Virus record (IMG/VR): IMGVR_UViG_3300008114_000012
Coordinates: 1-64,000 of that record
Strand: one strand, 5' to 3'
Source of the DNA: a virus
Length of the DNA stretch: 64,000 nucleotides
Each line of letters opens with the position of its first letter. Within the stretch, counting starts at the first letter, position 1. This document shows, in pieces, positions 26,749 to 40,819 of this stretch. Below the pieces are notes generated by a model. The model was not told the origin of the DNA. It saw only the letters and a program-made list of their open reading frames with translations, and did not search any database. Position numbers and translations under genes: made by a program.

Positions 26749-29577
26749 ATGATAAGTCAAGAAGAAATTAAATCGTTTCTAGAAGGAAACGACCCCGAAG
26801 AACATATCGTTGCCATAGAATTCGACTATGTTTCCGATTCTATATTCAAAATCAAAGAAATCCCTGGCAAAGGAAAAGAAATTAAAAAAGATACATTCGT
26901 AGCTTTCGCGTGGGTAGGTGACCTACGTGGTCTTAACTTTTATCAATCATCAAAGGCCTTACAGAAAGAAGCCATGTCCAAGTACGGGATTATGATTGAT
27001 AAACTCGAAACGGGGGATAATGACCGTATGGAGGAAGGTCTGAAGTTTATGGTTAAGTCCTTAAAGGGTTATCGCTCTCTCATTCAGTTTTTCAGAGATG
27101 GTGGTGTTGACCCGTGGGGAGAAAGAACCAAAGACCTAATAATGATACTACCCCCCACCGAACAGTATCTCATCTCACGAGAAAAAAGATTATTCAAAGG
27201 ATACGACGAATACAATGACATCACGAGGTTTGTATTCGACTTAGAGACAACCGCACTCGAACCCAAAGACGGTCGTATATTCATGATTGGTATCAAGACA
27301 AACAAAGGATACCAAAAAGTAATTGAGTGTTCTAATGAGGACGAGGAACGTCGTGGTCTTGTAGAATTCTTTAATATCATTGATGAATTAAAACCAAGTA
27401 TTATAGGAGGTTACAATTCGGCGAACTTCGACTGGTATTGGATATTCGAGCGTTGTAAAGCTCTGAACCTCGAAATTAAAAGGATTTGTAAAACACTTAA
27501 CCCAAAATATACAATTAAGGAAAGTGAGAACATGCTCAAACTTGCCAACGAAGTTGAAAGATACAACCAAGTTGGAATGTGGGGTTATAATGTAATTGAC
27601 ATTATACATTCTGTACGGAGAGCTCAAGCAATCAATTCAAGTATCAAGTCTGCGGGTTTGAAATACATTACCCAATATATTGATGCCGAGTCCGAAGACC
27701 GAGTTTATATTGACCACACCGAGATTGGTCCGATGTATTCCAAAAAAGAAGAATATTGGTTAAACATTAAGAACGGAAAATACAAGAAGGCAAATAATCC
27801 TGAGTTTGATAACTTGGACGCAAGATTTCCTGGTACATACATTAAGACAACAGGTGATGACATTGTGGAGAGATATCTTGACGATGACTTGGAGGAAACA
27901 TTATTGGTTGACGAAGAATTCAATCAGGGTACATTCCTTCTCGCTTCACTTGTACCAACAACTTATGAGAGAGTATCCACTATGGGTACAGCTACTTTGT
28001 GGAAGATGTTGATGCTTGCGTGGAGTTATAAACACAAACTCGCAATACCAAAGAAACAATCAAAGACAGATTTTGTGGGAGGATTGTCACGACTACTGAA
28101 AGTAGGATACTCAACCAAAGTATTAAAGCTCGACTACTCGTCACTTTATCCTTCAATCCAACTTGTACATGATGTGTTTCCTGATTGTGATATTACAGGA
28201 GCGATGAAAGGTATGTTGTCATACTTCCGTAACTCTCGTATCATGTATAAAAACTTGGCGGCCGAGTGGTATGATAAAGATAAAAAGACATCACTCAAAT
28301 ACGATAGAAAACAGTTACCGATTAAGATTTTCATCAACTCAATGTTCGGAGCCTTGTCGGCACCACAGGTATTTGCGTGGGGTGATATGTATATGGGAGA
28401 ACAGATTACATGTACAGGAAGACAATACCTTCGTATGATGATTAAGTTCTTTATGAATAAGGGTTATACCCCCCTTGTAATGGATACCGATGGTGTTAAC
28501 TTCTCAAAACCTGAAGGTGTGGAGGATAGAATTTATATTGGTAAGGGTCTAAACTGGAAAGTTAAGGAGGGTAAAGAATATCGTGGTGATGATGCTGACG
28601 TTGCCGAGTTTAACGATACATTCATGAGAGGTGAAATGGCGTTAGATACTGACGGTACTTGGCCATCTTGTATTAATCTCGCTCGTAAGAACTATGCGGT
28701 TATGGATGCGAAGGGTAAAATTAAACTCACGGGTAATACAATTAAGTCAAAGAAACTCCCACTTTATATTGAAACGTTTTTGGACAAAGGAGTTAAACAA
28801 TTACTCGAAGGTAAGGGTCAGGAGTTTATCGAGTGGTATTATGAATACGTTCAGAAAATTTATGATAAACAAATCCCACTCATGAAAATCGCCCAACGAG
28901 CCAAGGTTAAGTTAAGTATTGAGGATTATAGAAAACGTTCGAAGGAAAAAACAAAAGCGGGTAATGAGATGTCAAGGATGGCCCACATGGAACTCGCAAT
29001 TCGTGATAATATTGCGGTGAATCTTGGTGATGTTATATATTATGTTAATAACGGTGTGAAAGCGTCTCACGGTGATGTTCAGAAAGTTAATGATAAGATG
29101 TCAAAGAAAGAAAAGGATGAGTACAGAGCAAAACACGGTAAAGAACCGGTATTAGGTTCTCACATTCAACTTAATTGTTATCGTCTCGACCCAAGTGAGT
29201 TAGAAAACAATCCTGATATGACAGGTGATTACAATGTGCCGAGAGCGATAGCAACATTTAACAAACGTATCGAACCGTTGTTGGTTGTCTTTAAAGAAGA
29301 AGTACGTGACGGTTTGATTGTTGATAATCCCGAGGATAGAATGTTCTTTACCAAAGACCAATCAGAATTGATTAATGGATTACCATTTGAGAAGGGAGAC
29401 CAAGATACGTTGGAAGAAGTTTTGACAATATCTGAACCTGAAATGAGGTATTGGGAAAAACGAGGATTACATCCTGATTACATGTACGAACTTGCTTCTG
29501 AAGGGTGGAAAGAAAAATTAATCCATTTTGAGACCATCGGAGGACAGAACGTACCAATGGTTACCAATGTTAATTAA
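26749..29577 (+). CDS. 43: Family B DNA polymerase with 3'-5' exonuclease (gp43-like)
   Basis: 942 residues, close to T4 gp43 (898). The exonuclease motif is FVFDLETT with D164 and E166. Polymerase motif A is LDYSSLYPSIQ with D462; motif B is KIFINSMFG near 530; motif C is MDTDGVNF with D579 and D581. All catalytic residues are present, so both activities are expected. It replicates the phage genome with gp32, the helicase and (outside the window) the clamp and loader. It stands alone between the adhesin block and a minus-strand island. The last 60 nt overlap the 3' end of a convergent gene. The ATG at 26749 has no Shine-Dalgarno; a leader hairpin lies upstream. Confidence 0.97.
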   Translation: MISQEEIKSFLEGNDPEEHIVAIEFDYVSDSIFKIKEIPGKGKEIKKDTFVAFAWVGDLRGLNFYQSSKALQKEAMSKYGIMIDKLETGDNDRMEEGLKFMVKSLKGYRSLIQFFRDGGVDPWGERTKDLIMILPPTEQYLISREKRLFKGYDEYNDITRFVFDLETTALEPKDGRIFMIGIKTNKGYQKVIECSNEDEERRGLVEFFNIIDELKPSIIGGYNSANFDWYWIFERCKALNLEIKRICKTLNPKYTIKESENMLKLANEVERYNQVGMWGYNVIDIIHSVRRAQAINSSIKSAGLKYITQYIDAESEDRVYIDHTEIGPMYSKKEEYWLNIKNGKYKKANNPEFDNLDARFPGTYIKTTGDDIVERYLDDDLEETLLVDEEFNQGTFLLASLVPTTYERVSTMGTATLWKMLMLAWSYKHKLAIPKKQSKTDFVGGLSRLLKVGYSTKVLKLDYSSLYPSIQLVHDVFPDCDITGAMKGMLSYFRNSRIMYKNLAAEWYDKDKKTSLKYDRKQLPIKIFINSMFGALSAPQVFAWGDMYMGEQITCTGRQYLRMMIKFFMNKGYTPLVMDTDGVNFSKPEGVEDRIYIGKGLNWKVKEGKEYRGDDADVAEFNDTFMRGEMALDTDGTWPSCINLARKNYAVMDAKGKIKLTGNTIKSKKLPLYIETFLDKGVKQLLEGKGQEFIEWYYEYVQKIYDKQIPLMKIAQRAKVKLSIEDYRKRSKEKTKAGNEMSRMAHMELAIRDNIAVNLGDVIYYVNNGVKASHGDVQKVNDKMSKKEKDEYRAKHGKEPVLGSHIQLNCYRLDPSELENNPDMTGDYNVPRAIATFNKRIEPLLVVFKEEVRDGLIVDNPEDRMFFTKDQSELINGLPFEKGDQDTLEEVLTISEPEMRYWEKRGLHPDYMYELASEGWKEKLIHFETIGGQNVPMVTNVN

Positions 29578-29865
29578 TTCTACACAGGCACCTTTTTTCA
29601 TTTCGATTTCCTCGTAGTATTCATCAATGAGACCCGAGTTTGTCTTCAATAAAGTATTAGTAAGTGATTTAATAATAAGATGAGTAGTTGTAGTCCTGTC
29701 TAAAGTTAGTTGGCAGGATTCAACTTCTCTAACTAAAATTATATTTTCACCATTTGTGGTATATTCTGACTCGGAGATTGTTTTAATATTTAACTCACTA
29801 TCAGTCGCAACAGTATATGTTGTTTTATCACCAACTATTTTTCTAACGATATTAGATTTCTGCAT
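29518..29865 (-). CDS. Small beta-rich virion or fibre-like protein
   Basis: 115 residues, starting immediately after the neck-protein gene on the minus strand (2 nt apart) and overlapping the 3' end of the polymerase gene tail to tail. The end of the protein (ACVELINIGNHWYVLSS) follows a pattern common at the end of phage fibre and decoration domains, where a strand is followed by G-x-x-W-x-V-x-S. The middle is rich in Thr, Ser and Leu. No cysteines that bind metal and no catalytic motif are seen. A role on the virion is inferred from this pattern and from its coupling to the neck gene. Confidence 0.5.
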   Translation of the reverse strand: MQKSNIVRKIVGDKTTYTVATDSELNIKTISESEYTTNGENIILVREVESCQLTLDRTTTTHLIIKSLTNTLLKTNSGLIDEYYEEIEMKKGACVELINIGNHWYVLSSDGLKMD

Positions 29866-29867
29866 AA

Positions 29868-30989
29868 TTAGATAACGTAAATTTGTCTTGGCATTGCTGT
29901 GAGTTTCTTAATCTTGTTAAGATTTTCAGCAATCAACGCCTCTCTCTCCATTACTTTTTCAGGTTTAAGCCTTGTAAGACGACCTTCGGCACCTGTTAAT
30001 TCTTCAATTAATTTTGTTTTTTCATCTTTGGCTTCGGTTGCTAAAGATTGATAATCCATTGTTAATTCAGAATCAGGTGTTTTGATGTTACCACTAAACT
30101 TACCACGAATTCTAGATAAAGTTTCTTTGGCGTAAGCAAAGAACCAACGACGAACCCAAATTTGAGCCGGATTATTTAAATCAACCCAATCAATTTTATT
30201 AAATGGTACATCAGAAGGTAATTTAATAATATCAGGATTATCCTTTAAACATTTATCTCTATCAGGACCACCAGCATCATAATACCAATACCATACCTTA
30301 CCTCTCATCAATGTGGAGTTACCAAAGTCAAATTTACCACCAGGTGTATTCATTAAGTGAATTGCCTTTTTACCTTCAGGTAAAGCGGTAACTCTATAAG
30401 TTAATTCACCGGCTATAATCCTTCTCTGAATATTAATTTCCTGCATTCTTAATAACATATCGAATGCGGGCATCATAAAATATGAACCTGACATACCCAT
30501 TTGTGCGAATCCACCAGGACCCCCAAAACCACCACCACCTAAACCTCCAAAAGTCCAAGGGTCAAATAATAAGTTATTTAATTCTGATGGTGTAAACCAC
30601 AACAATTCGTTTAGTTCACGACCTGCGGGTATTTCATATATTTGTTGGTTTGGTACAAGTTGTATATAATCTTTTTGTAAAACCCAATCACCACCGGCCT
30701 GAAGACCAACTATTTTAGAATATGCGTAAGTGTATCTTTCCTCAAAACCTTGGCTTTTAGTGATGAAAGCTTTAGCCAAAGATTGGGTATCTAAATTTAG
30801 ATTATACAATGAAGTCCATTGACTCTCAATCAACCAATCTTGGATGTATTGTGAATAATCGTCAATAGATAGTTGTAACAGTGAGTCGAGTTGCTCGTCC
30901 TCTAATTCAACACTACGTAACGGAGCTCCTAACAAGTGTTTTAATCTTGTATATAACTCACTTCTTTCTGGTTCTGCGATTACGGCCAT
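29868..30989 (-). CDS. 13: Neck protein, gp13-like
   Basis: 373 residues (T4 gp13 is 309). The N-terminus has the helical pattern of gp13 proteins: LGAPLRSVELEDEQLDSLL followed by an aromatic helix. A beta region with WVLQKDYIQLVPNQQIYEI follows. Near the end, an aromatic helix (IWVRRWFFAYAKETLSRIRG) precedes a hydrophilic tail, as in T4-like cyanophage gp13. A Gly-rich loop at about 150-165 (FGGLGGGGFGGPGGF) is unusual and may be an insertion. It would sit in the head-tail connector below the portal. A box TATATTTAT lies 13 nt upstream of its ATG on the minus strand. The family call rests on pattern, not on alignment. Confidence 0.55.
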   Translation of the reverse strand: MAVIAEPERSELYTRLKHLLGAPLRSVELEDEQLDSLLQLSIDDYSQYIQDWLIESQWTSLYNLNLDTQSLAKAFITKSQGFEERYTYAYSKIVGLQAGGDWVLQKDYIQLVPNQQIYEIPAGRELNELLWFTPSELNNLLFDPWTFGGLGGGGFGGPGGFAQMGMSGSYFMMPAFDMLLRMQEINIQRRIIAGELTYRVTALPEGKKAIHLMNTPGGKFDFGNSTLMRGKVWYWYYDAGGPDRDKCLKDNPDIIKLPSDVPFNKIDWVDLNNPAQIWVRRWFFAYAKETLSRIRGKFSGNIKTPDSELTMDYQSLATEAKDEKTKLIEELTGAEGRLTRLKPEKVMEREALIAENLNKIKKLTAMPRQIYVI

Positions 30990-31011: not shown

Positions 31012-32553
31012 TCAACCCAATGTATAAATTAAATTGTTCTTATCGAATGTGTAATTACCGTCAACAATTTTTGTATCCGAGTTATCAAATACTAAAATAC
31101 CATCAGGACCACCCTCAAAAATAATCCAATCAGTCGAATAAACTTTTACTTGTCCTGTATCTAACATTGAAACCAAATTTTCATCGACAACTTTAACCGT
31201 TTTATATGGTTTTATTTGAGCGGTATATTCTTCACCATCAATAATGATGATACAATCAACACCCATTATCATGTCAGATTTGGCACCTAACTCGCCAATC
31301 TTTTTAACATTTTTGTCTCCGAATTTTTCCTTGAGTTTCTTAACTACTAAATCTTCTCTGGCGTCACCGGCTTTGTTGGTCGAACCTAATATTGCCATGA
31401 CATTTTGAAATGTGCCTGACTTTGATGAAAAAATTCTGTCTTTATATTCATCGAGTATTCTAACAAATTTTTTGGTCTCACTAACTTGTTGAGCCGGTGG
31501 TAATCCGATTAATTGTAATTCGGGTCTTCTTTCATATCTTAATACTGAATTCAAGTCGTGATATAAAACACAGAACGCATTGTAGTTGGTATTCAGTTTG
31601 TTAATTACCGAACGTCCTCTGTTTTCTAAATCAAAAATACCCGACATAGAACCTTCGGCGTATTCCCCATTCTCATACCAATTATCAGGAAACACTGACT
31701 TTAAAATTGACTCGATACCATAACGAAATGTGTTCTTAACTGCGGGATTGATATTAAAAATCATTCTTATCTCCTCAACTTTTTCTCTCGAACATCTTTC
31801 TGACTTACCTTCAGTGATAAGTTTTTTCATAACGGTGCTCTCGTTGATTTTTGTCTTGAGTTTCATTTCGTATAGTTTATTAACAAATTCCCAATTCACA
31901 ACTTTCCAAAAGTTTGAAATGTATTCGTCTCGTTTGTTTCTGTATTTCAAATAATATGCGTGCTCCCAAAGGTCTAATCCAAGTATCGGATATCCACCAC
32001 CCTTAACAACATTCATTAAGGGGTTGTCTTGGTTTGGGGTTGTTAAAATCTTTAACGTGTTTCTTTTTGTAAGAACCAACCAAACCCAACCTGAACCAAA
32101 ACGTTCTTTTGCTTTTTCCTCAAATTGTTTTTTGAATTCAACATAACTACCAAAATCACTTTTTATTTTATCTAAAATCTTACCATTAGCTTTTTGTGTT
32201 TTTGGCGATAACATCTTCCAAAACAATGCGTGGTTAAATGCCCCACCGGCATTGTCTCTGACTGTTTTATTGAATCGACTAATTGATTTAACAATTTGTT
32301 CTAATTCTAAATCTCCGTAATCTTTTTTTGATAAAGCTTTGTTTAACTTTTCAACATAACCTTTGTAGTGTTTGTTGTAATGTACATCCATCGTTTCAGA
32401 ATCGATGAATGATTTTAAGGATGAATAGGCGTAAGGTAATTTTTCAATACCTATGTTTTTCATTTCGGTGAGTAAAGTTTGACTCGACTCGACCTTTTCT
32501 TCTTTCAAAATTGATTTGGTTAAGGTGTCTATTTTTTTTTCTATGTTCTTCAT
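31012..32553 (-). CDS. Mn/Fe superoxide dismutase fused to a PD-(D/E)XK nuclease-like domain
   Basis: 513 residues. Residues about 35-232 are a full-length superoxide dismutase: metal ligands H58, H108 (GGAFNHALFW), D194 and H198 (DLWEHAYY), and the active-site gate Tyr66. GG at 103-104 and Q175 in NQDNPLM point to the Mn type. Residues about 243-513 are unrelated. They contain E400, D427/D433 and Q446-x-K448 (YTAQIKP), the spacing of PD-(D/E)XK nucleases with Gln in the third position. The first ~34 residues (SILKEE, LLTEM) form a charged helix absent from cellular SODs. A restart-like MKKLITEGK at codon 242 marks the fusion point. SOD activity is very likely, the nuclease is plausible. It might protect phage or host from superoxide while acting on DNA; that coupling is inference. 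Confidence 0.85.
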   Translation of the reverse strand: MKNIEKKIDTLTKSILKEEKVESSQTLLTEMKNIGIEKLPYAYSSLKSFIDSETMDVHYNKHYKGYVEKLNKALSKKDYGDLELEQIVKSISRFNKTVRDNAGGAFNHALFWKMLSPKTQKANGKILDKIKSDFGSYVEFKKQFEEKAKERFGSGWVWLVLTKRNTLKILTTPNQDNPLMNVVKGGGYPILGLDLWEHAYYLKYRNKRDEYISNFWKVVNWEFVNKLYEMKLKTKINESTVMKKLITEGKSERCSREKVEEIRMIFNINPAVKNTFRYGIESILKSVFPDNWYENGEYAEGSMSGIFDLENRGRSVINKLNTNYNAFCVLYHDLNSVLRYERRPELQLIGLPPAQQVSETKKFVRILDEYKDRIFSSKSGTFQNVMAILGSTNKAGDAREDLVVKKLKEKFGDKNVKKIGELGAKSDMIMGVDCIIIIDGEEYTAQIKPYKTVKVVDENLVSMLDTGQVKVYSTDWIIFEGGPDGILVFDNSDTKIVDGNYTFDKNNLIYTLG

Positions 32554-32586: not shown

Positions 32587-34356
32587 TTAGAATTGTCTTA
32601 CAGAATTTATCTTATTCATTATTTCCTCAACTATGTCACCGGAATTTATATTATCACCCATCACGGTTTCAATATTTTTCTTCTTGTTATTAACCATATC
32701 GTAGATTATTCCTTCGATTGTATTTTCAAATATCGGATAATAAACGGAAACTGAATTTTTTTGACCGTATCTATAAGCTCTATCTTCAGCTTGTGATAAA
32801 TCACCTGGCACGAATGCCAAGTCGTTTATGATTACCGCTTCTGCGGCGGTTAGGGTAATACCAACACCTGCGGCTTTTAAGTTACCAACGAATACTTTTA
32901 TCTTTTCGTTGTCTTGAAATTGGTCTACCGCATATTGTCTTTGAGCATTACTACAACTACCATCTAAAAATACAGCTTGTTTTCCGAAGTGACTGTAAAT
33001 TTTATGTAATGTATCTGTAAAGTTTGTGAATATAATGACTTTCTTTCCTTGTTCTAAAATATTTTCAGCAATCTCGATTGTGTTATTAACCTTTTCATCG
33101 GCAATGACCTGTCTAACTTTCATTAACTTACTAAATTGTACGGTCAATGACCCTGATTCTTCTTTTTTGTTGTCATACCAATCATAATAATCACCCATCA
33201 ATGCTTCGTATTGTTTTGACCTAACACGAAGATAAACTGGTGTAATAATCTTGTCAGGTAAATCCAACACTTCTGTCTTCAATCTACGTAAAACTTGTCT
33301 TGCTGTTCTATCTCTCAACTCCTCCAAGTTTGATGCTCCTGTCACATTCCAAACCTTCCTATTACCCGCTCTGAATTGATACCCCTGACAATATCTAATG
33401 GCAAATGCCATCCAATTTTGAGCTACAGGACTATCAATAAGATGTAATAGATTAAAATAATTCATTGGTCGTGATGTCATCGGAGTACCAGTTAATAACC
33501 ACAACTTATCAACATTCTTACAGATGTGATTAACAATCTTTGTTCTTTGAGCTTGAGCATTCTGAACATAGTGGGCTTCATCCAAAATTATCAAATCAAA
33601 GTTTGATTGTTTGATTAATGAAGTTTCTTTGTCCTTTGGGTCATGAAAGTTTTTCAATATGTCATAATTCACAATAACAAAATCATGCTCGGTCGAATAT
33701 GATTTACCTTCAGAAATAAACACACTTCGGTCTGTATAATTCTGAATCTCACGAAGCCAATTGACCTTTAACGTTGCCGGACAGACAATTAAAATCTTTT
33801 TGGCTCCCGTTTCTAAAGCCGCAATAATTGTTGATGTTGTTTTACCCAAACCCATGTCATCGGCAAGAATAAATCTTTTACTACCTGCCAATTTTTCTAT
33901 TGCTTCTTTTTGATGTTCGAGTGGAGGACGATGAGAATACTTTGAATAGTTGATATCGACTTTCTCCATTCTGTGTGACTTAATCAACGCCCCTTTCGGT
34001 AACCAAAAATCGTGAATTGTCTCACCTGAAAAAAACTTACCCCAAACGTGATAAGCTTTCTCCTTCTCAACCAACAATTTTTCTATCCAACATTCTGTGG
34101 GTATCTCCGTATATAATTTTTCATCGGCAATTTTCTTTGCGAAGTATGGGTCCAAATCAACCCATTTTTTGGCGACCTTTGGTGATGTTTCATGAAAGGT
34201 TGTGATATATTCTGATTGAGCTCGGGTGGGGTAAAACTTTTTATTATGTTCTTTATTGTATTTTAATTTCAGGATATAGTTGTTTGCCCCCGAATAATTT
34301 TCGAGAATGCCCAAAGCTCGTTGCTCAATCAAATTTGTCGAGGTTGAATTCAACAC
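32587..34356 (-). CDS. SNF2-type superfamily 2 helicase/ATPase
   Basis: 589 residues from GTG 34356; an upstream TTG at 34401 is in frame but would run through the promoter box and the neighbour's start. Walker A is DDMGLGKT (K172), the DEAH box is at 259-262 (ILDEAHYVQN), motif III is LLTGTPMTS, and the C-terminal helicase lobe contains FVGNLKAAGVGITLT and AEDRAYRYGQ. Order and motifs match the SNF2 family, including SMARCAL1/HARP-like fork-remodelling ATPases. In T4 the comparable job (branch migration and regression) is done by UvsW, a different SF2 protein. It may take that role here; the alternative is chromatin- or protein-remodelling on DNA. It is divergent from the 34393 gene, with overlapping control regions. 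Confidence 0.85.
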   Translation of the reverse strand: MLNSTSTNLIEQRALGILENYSGANNYILKLKYNKEHNKKFYPTRAQSEYITTFHETSPKVAKKWVDLDPYFAKKIADEKLYTEIPTECWIEKLLVEKEKAYHVWGKFFSGETIHDFWLPKGALIKSHRMEKVDINYSKYSHRPPLEHQKEAIEKLAGSKRFILADDMGLGKTTSTIIAALETGAKKILIVCPATLKVNWLREIQNYTDRSVFISEGKSYSTEHDFVIVNYDILKNFHDPKDKETSLIKQSNFDLIILDEAHYVQNAQAQRTKIVNHICKNVDKLWLLTGTPMTSRPMNYFNLLHLIDSPVAQNWMAFAIRYCQGYQFRAGNRKVWNVTGASNLEELRDRTARQVLRRLKTEVLDLPDKIITPVYLRVRSKQYEALMGDYYDWYDNKKEESGSLTVQFSKLMKVRQVIADEKVNNTIEIAENILEQGKKVIIFTNFTDTLHKIYSHFGKQAVFLDGSCSNAQRQYAVDQFQDNEKIKVFVGNLKAAGVGITLTAAEAVIINDLAFVPGDLSQAEDRAYRYGQKNSVSVYYPIFENTIEGIIYDMVNNKKKNIETVMGDNINSGDIVEEIMNKINSVRQF

Positions 34357-34357
34357 A

Positions 34358-34368
34358 TTATAAAAATA
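34358..34368 (-). promoter_or_regulatory. Candidate promoter box TATTTTTATAA abutting a GTG start (minus strand)
   Basis: On the minus strand TATTTTTATAA ends 1 nt before GTG 34356. The same variant occurs before NrdA at 63858. The spacing implies a leaderless or near-leaderless mRNA. Confidence 0.4.
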
Positions 34369-34381
34369 ATAAACAATTCGA

Positions 34382-34390
34382 TATTTATCA
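34382..34390 (+). promoter_or_regulatory. Candidate promoter box TATTTATCA abutting an ATG
   Basis: Ends 2 nt before ATG 34393. With the minus-strand box at 34358 it forms a compact divergent control region of about 35 bp. Confidence 0.45.
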
Positions 34391-34392
34391 AT

Positions 34393-34908
34393 ATGGGACA
34401 ACCGAGAGTACCAATATCAAGGATAGGAAAATTTTTTGGAGTTGAGGATTTCGACTTGGATATCTCTATGGGTGAGGAATGGTTACACGGTGATATGAAT
34501 TTCACACTTGTTCTATACCGTGTGGATAGACAAAAAACCAAAACCGATGATGTATATGGAGAGGCTTTAATGGATGGAATAAAGTTTTTACCACCCGTAG
34601 AATTCAAAGCATTTGTACAAATCATGGCCCCTGAAAACAAATATTTAGGTAACTCAAAGATTGACCAAGTTGAGCCAGGTAACATTAGAATATCGGTGTA
34701 TCAAAAACAGTTAGATGAACTTGAGATTGATATTAATTACGGTGATTACATTGGTTATTATGAAACTGAAAATCGTGTTAGATATTATGTGGTCAACAAT
34801 GATGGTCGTGTAATTTCTGATAATAAACATACATACGCTGGGTACAAGCCATTCTATAGAACAATTATGGCGTCTGCCGTTGTAGATAACGAATTTAGAG
34901 GATTATGA
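34393..34908 (+). CDS. Virion connector-like protein (possibly gp14-type neck)
   Basis: 171 residues, mostly predicted beta strands, no metal site or membrane segment. It contains YRVDRQKTKTDDVYGEA followed by FLPPVEFKAFV and a strand pattern ending YRTIMASAVV. Its place just before a probable tail terminator, the sheath and the tube suggests a head-tail connector protein. The layout of describing a barrel with a mid-length loop recalls neck protein gp14, but the length is shorter (T4 gp14 is 256) and no clear motif is shared. ATG 34393 is chosen because the promoter box sits just upstream. It overlaps the next small gene by 4 nt (ATGA). Confidence 0.45.
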   Translation: MGQPRVPISRIGKFFGVEDFDLDISMGEEWLHGDMNFTLVLYRVDRQKTKTDDVYGEALMDGIKFLPPVEFKAFVQIMAPENKYLGNSKIDQVEPGNIRISVYQKQLDELEIDINYGDYIGYYETENRVRYYVVNNDGRVISDNKHTYAGYKPFYRTIMASAVVDNEFRGL

Positions 34909-35063
34909 AAATAAAATTAACCGAAGACCAAATTAGAAGAATTTTAGAAATTGTTGATTCTGAAAAAGTTAAGTGTGATAAATGTGATTGGGAATGGAAC
35001 TTATCAGATGGTGGGGATGGCCCATTTATTTGTCATAAGTGTTGGCACGACAACGGAAAATAA
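34905..35063 (+). CDS. Small zinc-ribbon protein
   Basis: 52 residues: a short amphipathic N-terminal helix (MKIKLTEDQIRRILE), then two CxxC pairs (CDKC and CHKC) 16 residues apart, a four-Cys zinc ribbon. It is joined to both neighbours: its ATG overlaps the previous stop (ATGA) and its TAA shares an A with the next ATG (TAATG). The ribbon suggests a nucleic-acid or protein-binding adaptor. The leader, ending in Leu-Glu, resembles those of other proteins here that may be packaged in the head. Function unknown. Confidence 0.75.
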   Translation: MKIKLTEDQIRRILEIVDSEKVKCDKCDWEWNLSDGGDGPFICHKCWHDNGK

Positions 35064-36376: not shown

Positions 36377-39300
36377 ATGGCAAGCAACAGTAAAGTATTT
36401 GTATCACCTGGAGTTTATACTTCAGAGGTTGATTTAAGTTTTGTGGCACAAAGTGTGGGGGTAACCACACTTGGTATAGTGGGAGAGACTCTACGAGGTC
36501 CTGCTTTTGAACCAATATTCATCAGAAATTTTGATGAATTCACAGCTTATTTTGGTGGAACCTCACCAGAAAAATTCATTAATACTCAAATTCCAAAGTA
36601 TGAGGCGGCATATATTGCCAAAGCTTATTTACAACAATCTAATCAATTGTTTGTAACAAGAGTACTTGGGTTATCGGGGTATGATGCGGGACCCTCATGG
36701 TCAATAACTACAAAGGCAAATGTTGATGGTAGTACAGTGGATTTTTATTGTAACTCATCTTCATTAGTTGATTGTGTAACTGAATGTACTGATTATGAAG
36801 TAATTGACTTTAGTGTTGATTTCAATGGATGTTCTAATAACATATCGTCAATCAGTTTCAATACCGCACAAATTCCGTCAGTTATTTTAAACAAACTAAG
36901 TAATTCTTTAGAACTATTCAATGGAAGTACTACTTCATTGTTGGCTCAAATGAACAATCAAGTTTATAACGCAATCTTATCTTCGGGTAACACCACCGGT
37001 TCCTCAATTTATTACTATGGTGTAATTTCTGGAGGTAGTTATAGCGCGTTATCAACTACTTATAGTGCAGAAACAAACGTGTTTGGTGTAGACACCGTAG
37101 ATTCAACAAATTACAATTACGCTGACCCAAATAATGACCCTTGGTATTATGCGTTGTTTGATAATAACTCTCATCAGGTTGGGGGATATTCGGGGTATTC
37201 ATTTTATACAACTATAAGTAGCTTTATTCCGACGACAACATCTAGTAATTGTGCAACTTTCTATTCATTCCAATTAGATGGTACACCTGGTGTTATAAAT
37301 TACAACACCAATACAATAACAGTTTGTGTAGGAGCTTTGAGTGCTGCTTTCACACCAACATATACGACTTGTGTTGATGAAGATAATATTACAGGTCCTG
37401 GAGGAGCTATTTTATGGAATGGTGCTTCATTCTTGGATTTAAGTTCAGGTTCGGCAATAGTTCAGATGGTATCTGAAGATGGTACAGTTACAGTAAATTG
37501 GAATATCGTTGCAGTTGTAAGCGACCCCTGTAATCCTTGTACCGCAACAGGTGCTGGCGAAGGTAATGTTGGTTCAATCAATAGATGTTATAGCGGTACT
37601 TTGACCGGTAAAATTTATGTATATAGTGGAACACCGTATTTAGATTACGATAATTTAGTTATTGCTACTCTCCGTTCAAGAGGTCTTGCAACATATGGTA
37701 ACGATACAGGTGCGGTTTACGAAGTTACAGGATTGACTGACGTGAGTATGGTTACAACAGGTCAGTATTCAGGAGTAACCAAAAATCCATTCTCAACTTT
37801 TGGATTAAACGTTACAAATAACGATGGAACGACCCTGTTCTTTCAAACCTCATTTACTAATGCGGACACTCAATATATTTCAAAAGTATTCGGTTCAACA
37901 AACTTTGCAAAACCAAGACAAACCGTTCCTTTATTTGTTGAGGAAAGATATCAAAACTTATTGAGTTACGCTTATAGAAAAGGTTACATTAAAGGTTTAA
38001 ATACCTCGTTAACCGCACTAAACAGTGCCAGAAGTGAAGAGATAACAAGTATCGGTTTTTATTTAGAACAATACCAATCATCGTCTTCACCATGGATAGT
38101 ATCTGAATTAAGAGGTTCTAAAGTATATAATTTATTCAGATTCCATACAATTGCTGATGGTGAAGACGCTAACTTACAAGTTAAGATTTCATTGGCTAAT
38201 ATGTCTTTTGCTAATCAGACATTTGATGTGTTAGTTAGAGATTATTTTGACTCTGATAATTCTCCAGTGGTTATAGAAAAATTCACCAACTGCAGTATGG
38301 ACCCCAATGAAAATAACTTCATTGCGACTAAGATTGGTACTTCTGATGGTGAGTATCAGTTAAATTCTAAATACATAATGGTTGAGATGAATGAGGATGC
38401 TCCTACAGACGCACTTCCTTGTGGATTCTTAGGATTTAATATGAGAGAATATTCAGGAGTTGTACCTCCATTTCCTATTTATAAAACAAAATATGATTTC
38501 CCTGGTGAAACAGTATTCAATCCGCCATTTGGCAATTCTTCGGGTGCCGATGACGCGGTAACTAGTGCGGGTGACAACGTAAGACGTACATATTTAGGTA
38601 TCTCGGATACTGTTGGATATGACGTTGATTTCTTCCTTTACAAAGGTAAAAGAATACCTGGAGCATTTTGTACTGACCCAACAGGAGAGGAATGGGGATA
38701 TAGAACAAGAGGTTTCCACATGGATATAAACGCATCAGGAGTTACAATTGCAAATGGCTTTGCAACTAGTGGCACCCCAACGTTCTTCTGTGGTTCCGCT
38801 CCGTTCATTAACGACCCTGAAGACCCAACAAATCCATATTATAGATTGTTTGGTCGTAAATTTACTGTGGCGGTACAAGGAGGTTTTGATGGATGGGATA
38901 TCTATACAGAACGTCGTACAAATTCAGATAGATTCGTACTTGGTAAGTCAGGTTATTTAAAAGGTGCATGTGAATCAATTCTTTATCCTAATGCTACTGG
39001 ATGGGGAGCATTTAAGAAAATTACAGTCAATAAAAATTCAGTAGACTTTGCAAACACAGATTATTACGCTTATTTATTGGGTCAACAGACCTTCTCAAAT
39101 CCTGAGGCGGTTAATATTAATGTATTTGTTACTCCTGGTATTGATTATGTAAATAACTCAAACTTGGTTGAAGCGGCGATAGAGATGATTGAGTTTGATA
39201 GGGCTGACTCCTTATACATTTGTACAACACCTGACTACAACATGTTTACACCTTCAGCTGGTAATTCAGAAGAAATAATTTACCCACAAGAAGCGGTTGA

Positions 39301-39946
39301 TAATCTTGAAACTACGGGTATTGACTCAAACTATACTTGTACTTACTACCCATGGGTTTTAACAAGAGATAGTGTTAACAATACACAAATTTATTTACCA
39401 CCAACTGCTGAAGTTACAAGAAACTTAGCATTGACCGACAACATTGCATTCCCATGGTTCGCGGCGGCAGGTTACACTCGTGGTATAGTAAACGCTGTAA
39501 AAGCTCGTAAGAAACTGACTCAAGAGGATAGAGATGTTCTTTACAAAGGTAGAATTAACCCAATCGCAACCTTCTCTGATGTAGGTACAGTAATTTGGGG
39601 TAATAAAACCCTTCAAGTTAGAGAATCTGCACTTGACAGAATTAACGTTAGAAGATTGTTGTTACAAGCTCGTAAGTTAATTTCAGCAGTTTCAGTTAGA
39701 TTGTTGTTCGAACAAAATGACCAAAAGGTTAGACAGGACTTCTTGGATGCGGTTAATCCAATCCTTGACGCAATCAGAAGAGACAGAGGTTTATACGATT
39801 TCCGTGTAACAGTTTCTTCAGACACTGCTGACTTGGATAGAAACCAAATGACAGGTAAGATTTATATCAAACCAACAAGGTCACTTGAATTCATCGATAT
39901 TACATTCTACATAACCCCAACAGGTGCGTCGTTTGAAAATATCTAA
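36377..39946 (+). CDS. 18: Tail sheath protein (gp18-like), very large
   Basis: 1189 residues, against 659 in T4 gp18. The N-terminus (SPGVYTSEVDLSFVAQSVGV, then GPAFEPIFIRNFDEFTAYFGG) is the standard sheath opening. The C-terminal ~280 residues hold the conserved core: PPTAEVTRNLALTD, AGYTRGIVNAVKARKKLT, RLLLQARKLISAVSVRLLFE and FIDITFYITPTG. Between them, about residues 115-470 contain a Ser/Thr/Asn-rich stretch with several Cys that looks like inserted surface domains. The sheath contracts to drive the tube into the cell; the insertions should decorate its outside. Promoter box 30 nt upstream, no Shine-Dalgarno, hairpin after the stop. Confidence 0.93.
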   Translation: MASNSKVFVSPGVYTSEVDLSFVAQSVGVTTLGIVGETLRGPAFEPIFIRNFDEFTAYFGGTSPEKFINTQIPKYEAAYIAKAYLQQSNQLFVTRVLGLSGYDAGPSWSITTKANVDGSTVDFYCNSSSLVDCVTECTDYEVIDFSVDFNGCSNNISSISFNTAQIPSVILNKLSNSLELFNGSTTSLLAQMNNQVYNAILSSGNTTGSSIYYYGVISGGSYSALSTTYSAETNVFGVDTVDSTNYNYADPNNDPWYYALFDNNSHQVGGYSGYSFYTTISSFIPTTTSSNCATFYSFQLDGTPGVINYNTNTITVCVGALSAAFTPTYTTCVDEDNITGPGGAILWNGASFLDLSSGSAIVQMVSEDGTVTVNWNIVAVVSDPCNPCTATGAGEGNVGSINRCYSGTLTGKIYVYSGTPYLDYDNLVIATLRSRGLATYGNDTGAVYEVTGLTDVSMVTTGQYSGVTKNPFSTFGLNVTNNDGTTLFFQTSFTNADTQYISKVFGSTNFAKPRQTVPLFVEERYQNLLSYAYRKGYIKGLNTSLTALNSARSEEITSIGFYLEQYQSSSSPWIVSELRGSKVYNLFRFHTIADGEDANLQVKISLANMSFANQTFDVLVRDYFDSDNSPVVIEKFTNCSMDPNENNFIATKIGTSDGEYQLNSKYIMVEMNEDAPTDALPCGFLGFNMREYSGVVPPFPIYKTKYDFPGETVFNPPFGNSSGADDAVTSAGDNVRRTYLGISDTVGYDVDFFLYKGKRIPGAFCTDPTGEEWGYRTRGFHMDINASGVTIANGFATSGTPTFFCGSAPFINDPEDPTNPYYRLFGRKFTVAVQGGFDGWDIYTERRTNSDRFVLGKSGYLKGACESILYPNATGWGAFKKITVNKNSVDFANTDYYAYLLGQQTFSNPEAVNINVFVTPGIDYVNNSNLVEAAIEMIEFDRADSLYICTTPDYNMFTPSAGNSEEIIYPQEAVDNLETTGIDSNYTCTYYPWVLTRDSVNNTQIYLPPTAEVTRNLALTDNIAFPWFAAAGYTRGIVNAVKARKKLTQEDRDVLYKGRINPIATFSDVGTVIWGNKTLQVRESALDRINVRRLLLQARKLISAVSVRLLFEQNDQKVRQDFLDAVNPILDAIRRDRGLYDFRVTVSSDTADLDRNQMTGKIYIKPTRSLEFIDITFYITPTGASFENI

Positions 39947-40000: not shown

Positions 40001-40819
40001 ATGAGAAAAAAATACATATTAGAAGGTATTACAGAAGAAGGTACTCCTGACATGAAATATTATGCGTTTGATTGGGATGATAATATCTTAACAATGCCGA
40101 CCAAAATAGTACTCAAGGATGTTGATGGTGATGAAGTAGGTATGTCAACTGAAGATTTCGCTCATCATCGTGAAAAAATAGGAAAAGAAAATTTTGAATA
40201 CGATGGACATGAAATTGTAGGTTTCGCTCAAAATCCATTTAGATACTTTAGTATAGAAGGTGATAAAAGATTTATTATTGACTCTATGTTAGCAAAACCA
40301 GGACCAGCTTGGACTGATTTTGTCGAAGCAATTAATAACGGGTCTGTGTTTTCGATAGTCACCGCTAGAGGTCATACTCCAAGTGTTATTAAAGAGTCAG
40401 TATATAATATGATTATTTCAAATCATATGGGTATTAATTCAAATGAGTTAATAAAAAATTTAGAAAAATTCCGTGATTTAGAAGGTGTGGGAAAATCCAC
40501 CAAAAGAGATATGATATTAGAATATCTTGATATGTGTCGTTTTTACCCTGTAACTTACGGAGAAGGTAGTGCGACTAATCCTGAAGAAGGAAAAATTAAA
40601 GCCCTAAAAGATTTTGTGGATTATGTTAAAAGAATTTCTAAAATGATTAATAAGAAAGCATATCTGAAAAATAAGATTTCTAACAGATTTACACCAATGA
40701 TTGGATTTTCAGATGACGACTTAAGAAATTTAGAAAAAGTTAAACAACATTTTGAAAAAGACCCAGAAAACATAATTAAAACTATATCAACTGCAGGAGG
40801 AATTAAAAAACCTTATTAA
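40001..40819 (+). CDS. HAD-superfamily phosphatase-like protein
   Basis: 272 residues. Motif I is YAFDWDDN (D24, D26), motif II is SIVTARGHT, and motif IV is GFSDDDLRN, all in the usual HAD order, so a phosphohydrolase is likely. A helical stretch between motifs II and IV (about 135-220) is the cap or substrate-binding part. The start MRKKYILEGITEE resembles the charged leaders of other proteins here and might be cut off. In T4-like phages HAD domains occur in polynucleotide kinase-phosphatase; no kinase domain is seen, so the substrate stays open. It lies alone between sheath and tube genes, an odd place for a metabolic enzyme. Confidence 0.75.
   Translation: MRKKYILEGITEEGTPDMKYYAFDWDDNILTMPTKIVLKDVDGDEVGMSTEDFAHHREKIGKENFEYDGHEIVGFAQNPFRYFSIEGDKRFIIDSMLAKPGPAWTDFVEAINNGSVFSIVTARGHTPSVIKESVYNMIISNHMGINSNELIKNLEKFRDLEGVGKSTKRDMILEYLDMCRFYPVTYGEGSATNPEEGKIKALKDFVDYVKRISKMINKKAYLKNKISNRFTPMIGFSDDDLRNLEKVKQHFEKDPENIIKTISTAGGIKKPY

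Follow-up and report, generated by a model that had tools for sequence, protein, structure and literature searches.

A tagged superoxide dismutase-nuclease fusion of uncultured T4-type phages, predicted to be a polyprotein processed by the head protease

Why should a T4-type phage join a superoxide dismutase (SOD) to a nuclease-like domain in a single chain? The question is raised by a gene in the first 64,000 nucleotides of IMG/VR virus record IMGVR_UViG_3300008114_000012, a stretch that we call the window and that belongs to a 200-kb fragment (G000). An earlier note on this DNA correctly placed the open reading frame (ORF), which lies on the minus strand, and guessed that the fusion links oxidative-stress defence with DNA cutting or repair, or serves as a virion-delivered effector. 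We favour, at a probability of roughly 0.6, the reading that the gene encodes a head-targeted polyprotein that is processed by the gp21 protease and delivered with the DNA. We do so because protease-like sites that obey the gp21 rule lie at the domain boundaries, because the linker holds the sole internal copy of an N-terminal tag, because the tagged modules vary independently, because a stand-alone homologue of the nuclease half is itself tagged, and because such tags are enriched in the record. The parts of the gene are as follows.

31012..32553, minus strand: SOD-nuclease fusion gene, 513 amino acids; stop codon at 31012-31014, ATG at 32553
32464..32553, minus strand: N-terminal tag, residues 1-30, a predicted capsid-targeting propeptide; variable, ending in an invariant [LI]-x-E, and retained in the SOD-less protein L134
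32464..32472, minus strand: predicted head-protease site 1, residues 28-30 (LTE/M, the slash marking the predicted cut); 39/39 representatives have [LI]-x-E, with a variable middle residue
31867..32454, minus strand: Mn-type SOD domain, residues 34-229, from Pfam, PDB and ligand conservation
31810..31866, minus strand: separator, residues 230-248 (..KTKINESTVMKKLITE), tag-like; no other internal stretch in the ORFs of G000 matches the N-terminal tag motif
31840..31848, minus strand: predicted head-protease site 2, residues 236-238 (INE/S); E238 in 41/41, [LIM] at 236 in 40/41
31810..31818, minus strand: predicted head-protease site 3, residues 246-248 (ITE/G); [LIM]-x-E in 41/41
31015..31809, minus strand: C-terminal PD-(D/E)XK-like domain, residues 249-513, from AlphaFold2, Foldseek and homology to a stand-alone head-cluster protein
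31111..31398, minus strand: putative catalytic core, residues 386-481, with E400, D427, D433 and Q446-x-K448, all five invariant

Residue conservation was scored twice, in a first set of 81 sequences and in a second of 41 representatives, 39 of them SOD-bearing. The fusion protein holds ten [LI]-x-E triplets, of which one conserved copy precedes the SOD (residues 28-30, 39/39) and two sit between SOD and nuclease (236-238, 40/41; 246-248, 41/41). The only other conserved triplet is the LWE within the SOD metal motif DLWEHAYY, and each of the other six survives in 1-18 of about 40 sequences. At all three boundary sites P3 and P1 are fixed while P2 varies freely, and the T4 head protease gp21 is known to cleave after L/I-X-E (PMC9026906). 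The presumed maturation site of gp23 in this phage group, LINE/A in three gp23 sequences, fits the same rule. Neither gp21 nor gp23 was found in the 200-kb fragment; a 322-kb contig of the same phage (G001), whose fusion protein is 100% identical, encodes a terminase (so labelled from its tblastn matches), a portal protein (gp20 homologue), an S77 protease (gp21) and gp23, which supports the assignment to T4-type phages. A gp21-type protease and gp23 are also present in a relative, G002. The earlier note had missed this architecture; the invariance of [LI]-x-E at three domain boundaries makes virion delivery by far the best supported of its three guesses, with delivery itself still a prediction.

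Many small ORFs of G000 start with peptides such as MKKIIRLTESDLTRIVKRAINE, and 28 of its 174 ORFs have the short motif [LI][TIN]E[SEQGK] somewhere in their first 30 residues, where chance would give 3.7 (at most 9 in any of 200 draws). A longer tag motif, [KR][LIM]xE[STG]x(5-14)[LIM]xE, occurs N-terminally in 8-9 other ORFs and has one internal match in the ~50,000 residues of G000 ORFs, namely the SOD/nuclease linker KINESTVMKKLITEG. Descriptively, it matches 0.3% of shuffled linkers and 0 of 2913 sequence windows inside domains.

Variants of the locus also suggest a modular construction. In L117 and further contigs the same position holds an 873-amino-acid protein that runs from tag to SOD, separator KLMESIRIIKEE, nuclease-type module A, separator KLTESTRKNRLLLEG and nuclease-type module B, both separators being tags once more. 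Proteins without SOD also occur there, of 309 amino acids (L134-type) and 298 amino acids (L140-type), and have kept the tag, the site and the nuclease; L134 passes from the tag, through a few residues of the beginning of the SOD, directly into the separator and nuclease. Since the L134-type and L140-type proteins fall in different SOD-bearing clades of the nuclease-domain tree, SOD has probably been lost twice. Finally, a stand-alone homologue of the C-terminal domain (L100:10104-11060, 318 amino acids; BLASTP 7e-6, profile-profile 3.9e-10 with a probability of 97%) lies in the head cluster of G001 between gp21 and a putative scaffold gene and bears its own N-terminal tag; no ORF like it was present at the corresponding place in G002.

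These variants bear on the best-surviving alternative, in which an uncut bifunctional enzyme acts in the infected cell, its SOD shielding replication from oxidative stress and its nuclease taking part in recombination or repair with a UvsW-like helicase. The gene does follow such a helicase, the nuclease fold resembles Holliday-junction resolvases, and the fusion is retained in nearly all relatives. Nevertheless, two lineages have cleanly lost the SOD yet retain the tag, invariant protease-like sites mark the domain boundaries, and the stand-alone homologue sits among head genes, so that we consider an uncut enzyme unlikely. A working link between SOD and nuclease inside a single enzyme is not needed, and the protease-like sites and the SOD-loss lineages argue against it. 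A second alternative accepts packaging and has the tags merely dock the protein on the prohead core, the chain remaining uncut and acting as a fused virion effector. The resemblance of the tags to amphipathic helices and their presence at the N-termini of other phage ORFs would suit it, but fixed P3 and P1 with a free P2 at three sites is the pattern of a cleavage site rather than of a docking helix, and we hold this version to be improbable.

The SOD half is as complete as had been claimed. Pfam places Sod_Fe_N at residues 37-116 (8.7e-22, 77.8 bits, cut-off 27) and Sod_Fe_C at residues 123-226 (1.9e-40, 137.5 bits, cut-off 20.9), and a search of PDB sequences returned 161 matches, headed by a Staphylococcus Mn/Fe SOD over residues 36-229 (1.2e-61). 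The metal ligands H58, H108, D194 and H198 (three His and one Asp) are all present, and neither they nor Y66 and Q175 vary in the first set (81/81) or among the SOD-bearing representatives (39/39). An Mn-type enzyme is suggested by Gln175, which lies in the C-terminal SOD domain. The phage SODs form a single clade with a long stem that is not nested in any bacterial group, pointing to one old acquisition. None of the bacterial SODs that we found exceeds 51% identity to the phage SOD, and this distance, with the separate clade, rules out host contamination.

The C-terminal half was harder to place. Residues 249-513 gave nothing significant in Pfam, PHROGs, PDB sequences or cultured phages, nor in GTDB genomes, where the scan used two peptide patterns and was not exhaustive. 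An AlphaFold2 model of the domain (24 relatives in the alignment) reached a predicted local distance difference test score (pLDDT) of 91.4, and the first 23 Foldseek matches in the PDB were all PD-(D/E)XK enzymes (best I-Ssp6803I and Hjc; probability up to 0.99). Every sequence of both sets (81/81 and 41/41) has E400, D427, D433, Q446 and K448. The model puts E400 on a long helix, D433 before a strand and Q446-x-K448 on the next strand, which is the order expected of the QxK variant of the PD-(D/E)XK fold; Mrr and MspJI are active with a PD-QxK motif (PMC12707154). All five residues are also invariant between the SOD-fused and stand-alone homologues, which are only ~20-25% identical. The domain is thus a probable nuclease, and the PD-(D/E)XK assignment proposed earlier is supported by the fold search and by the invariance of the residues it named, with E-values against the PDB of only 5e-3 or weaker. 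That this is instead a structural or DNA-binding head component with such a fold and no nuclease activity might be argued from the weak PDB matches and the lack of a sequence match to any nuclease family, but the five putative catalytic residues, invariant across so divergent a set, and the activity of PD-QxK in Mrr and MspJI leave it little probability.

Could the fusion be an artefact of assembly? The gene lies between three syntenic neighbours.

32587..34401, minus strand: upstream, UvsW-like SNF2-type helicase (Pfam SNF2-rel_dom and Helicase_C; PHROG DNA helicase)
29868..30989, minus strand: downstream, putative neck protein (gp13-like), a partial match to PHROG head-tail adaptor (1.9e-10)
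29518..29865, minus strand: downstream, a 115-amino-acid ORF (orf115) of no known family

The fusion gene is flanked by the helicase and neck genes on the same strand, and the order gp14-UvsW-[SOD-nuclease]-gp13-orf115-polB, in which the gp13 and gp14 names derive from position and a weak PHROG match, is kept in 160/160 IMG/VR loci as far as the contigs extend. Because these loci keep one gene order, and with independent contigs (L002-L006) carrying copies identical or 97-100% identical to the fusion protein, an assembly chimera is ruled out. The IMG/VR scan returned 80 full-length relatives at 53-100% whole-protein identity and at least 448 stretches that encode the C-terminal domain. The median ratio of nonsynonymous to synonymous substitution (dN/dS) is 0.04 for the SOD and 0.10 for the C-terminal domain, indicating that purifying selection acts on both halves. 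Judged from these genomes, the fusion is real and widespread in a large family of uncultured T4-type phages. The earlier note knew of no SOD-nuclease fusion, and in the literature searched we likewise found no paper describing one in a phage, nor the tag sequence; novelty of the sequence itself does not hold, given hundreds of metagenomic relatives and a protein of 501 amino acids from an uncultured Caudovirales phage, deposited as 'superoxide dismutase' (BFVD/UniProt A0A6J5L953). Part of that protein has the fold of the C-terminal domain (38% identical; template modelling (TM) score 0.91), and because it shares both this fold and the SOD name, it is very likely the same fusion, already deposited under the SOD name only.

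The course of packaging, cleavage and delivery, the two enzyme activities and their targets are what we infer. The N-terminal propeptide would carry the fusion protein into the prohead, where a gp21-type protease would cleave the chain behind its [LI]-x-E triplets, at residue 30 and at one or both of 238 and 248. The Mn-type SOD and the PD-(D/E)XK-type nuclease released in this way would both be retained in the capsid and would enter the host together with the phage DNA. The nuclease might then act early in infection on host or phage DNA, and the SOD might clear superoxide while the head fills or, once infection has begun, inside or close to the new host cell, or might protect packaged DNA and proteins. 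The role of the SOD is the weakest step of this mechanism.

Several points weigh against a processed, head-delivered polyprotein. For every member of the family, cleavage and presence in the virion are predictions from sequence. The longer tag motif was composed after the tags and linker had been viewed, so that its figures are descriptions and no blind test; its absence elsewhere in G000 is still informative. There is no clear tag enrichment in the 182-kb fragment of G002 (6 versus 3.5, fusion gene excluded), and none in the part of Flavobacterium phage immuto that was examined. The PDB fold matches of the nuclease half are weak, with low TM-scores and a best E-value of 5e-3. The full-length AlphaFold2 model is poor (pLDDT 70), probably because its alignment held only close relatives, and is no guide to site exposure or SOD geometry. 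Finally, the scaffold label of the gene before gp23 derives from position only, with no PHROG match.

If the polyprotein reading is correct, the fusion belongs with the T4-type internal proteins and the polyvalent proteins rather than in a new category. The T4 internal proteins (IPI-III, Alt) carry capsid targeting sequences that are cleaved by gp21 (PMC9026906); the phage protein resembles them in its short N-terminal propeptide ending in L/I-X-E, in the gp21 and gp23 homologues of its phage and in its proposed delivery with DNA, and differs in bearing SOD and nuclease-type domains and extra internal sites, which would make it a polyprotein. Like the polyvalent proteins of phages and conjugative elements (PMC5512222; for example, P1 DarA/DdrB), it combines several unrelated effector-like domains in one chain, with processing and head packaging predicted here; unlike them, its modules are separated by tags. 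Its chains hold two to three domains with separators, Pfam found no peptidase domain of its own, and the word superoxide is absent from that paper. With Mn/Fe SODs it shares the domains and ligands, as it may with the SODs of other phages (for example, Pseudomonas phage PA5oct, Vibrio phage 2.275.O), but the family here is a distinct clade fused to a tag and a nuclease, and matches in other phage records cover the SOD part only. The C-terminal half has the helix-borne E, the D before a strand and the QxK on the next strand of PD-(D/E)XK nucleases (I-Ssp6803I, archaeal Hjc; QxK as in Mrr/MspJI), which are its top fold matches, but lacks detectable sequence similarity to them and adds a helical N-terminal region of ~130 residues. 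Separately, the SOD-like proteins of the PA5oct group and 2.275.O, both jumbo phages, are divergent and some are annotated as hypothetical, and four short phage records (OR850395, OR845917, OR851122, OR846937) hold apparent bacterial SOD genes that are probably host DNA filed as phage.

In terminase and capsid, Flavobacterium phage immuto, Microcystis phage Mel-JY01 and Rhodothermus phage RM378 are among the closest cultured relatives, and Bacteroidota supply many of the bacterial SODs nearest to the phage enzyme; on these two grounds we guess at a Bacteroidota host. Phage immuto was considered as a cultured model and rejected, having gp21 and gp23 but no tag enrichment in the part examined and no match to the fusion protein.

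Other genes of the phage also drew attention. Beyond the window, at 133-186 kb of G000 (L085-L088), many small ORFs begin with MKK-x-RLTESDL..., MK(F/Y)(L/I)ITES... or MNLKESIKRILREE; most of those tested lack a Pfam match, and from their N-termini they are likely further capsid-targeted proteins. A 470-amino-acid ORF at G000 125061-126473 (L085:4061-5473) has the N-terminal tag KLNETYINSLVEKIINE and a second, internal tag-like stretch, TMTEGELINFIEKIIKEE, and may be another tagged polyprotein or a core protein. Within the window, a 52-amino-acid ORF on the plus strand (34905-35063), MKIKLTEDQIRRILE..., has four paired cysteines that may form a zinc ribbon, and its N-terminus is tag-like. The tail sheath (36377-39946, plus strand; 1189 amino acids) is far longer than usual, with sheath families matching its last quarter only, and is directly followed by a 272-amino-acid protein (40001-40819, plus strand) that starts MRKKYILEGITEEG, looks HAD-like by eye (FDWDDNIL) and has no Pfam match. 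Thioredoxin-like and glutaredoxin-like ORFs, recognised by eye at G000 138204-138804 (L085), suggest that the phage may have other redox genes.

Phages inject proteins along with their DNA, as the T4 internal proteins illustrate, and the repertoire of such cargo is poorly known. Here the sequence by itself points to cargo that bears two clear enzymatic signatures, in a lineage both abundant and uncultured, and to a tag through which further cargo could be listed from genomes. We see about even odds that the head carries a capsid-delivered antioxidant, an active SOD freed together with a nuclease by the head protease and entering the host with the first DNA, and that, more generally, internal tags string unrelated cargo modules into polyproteins processed by the head protease. 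If this is true, virion-delivered proteins of this lineage could be predicted from a signal that is readable in the sequence, and the question would arise of why a phage needs superoxide dismutase at the first moments of infection.
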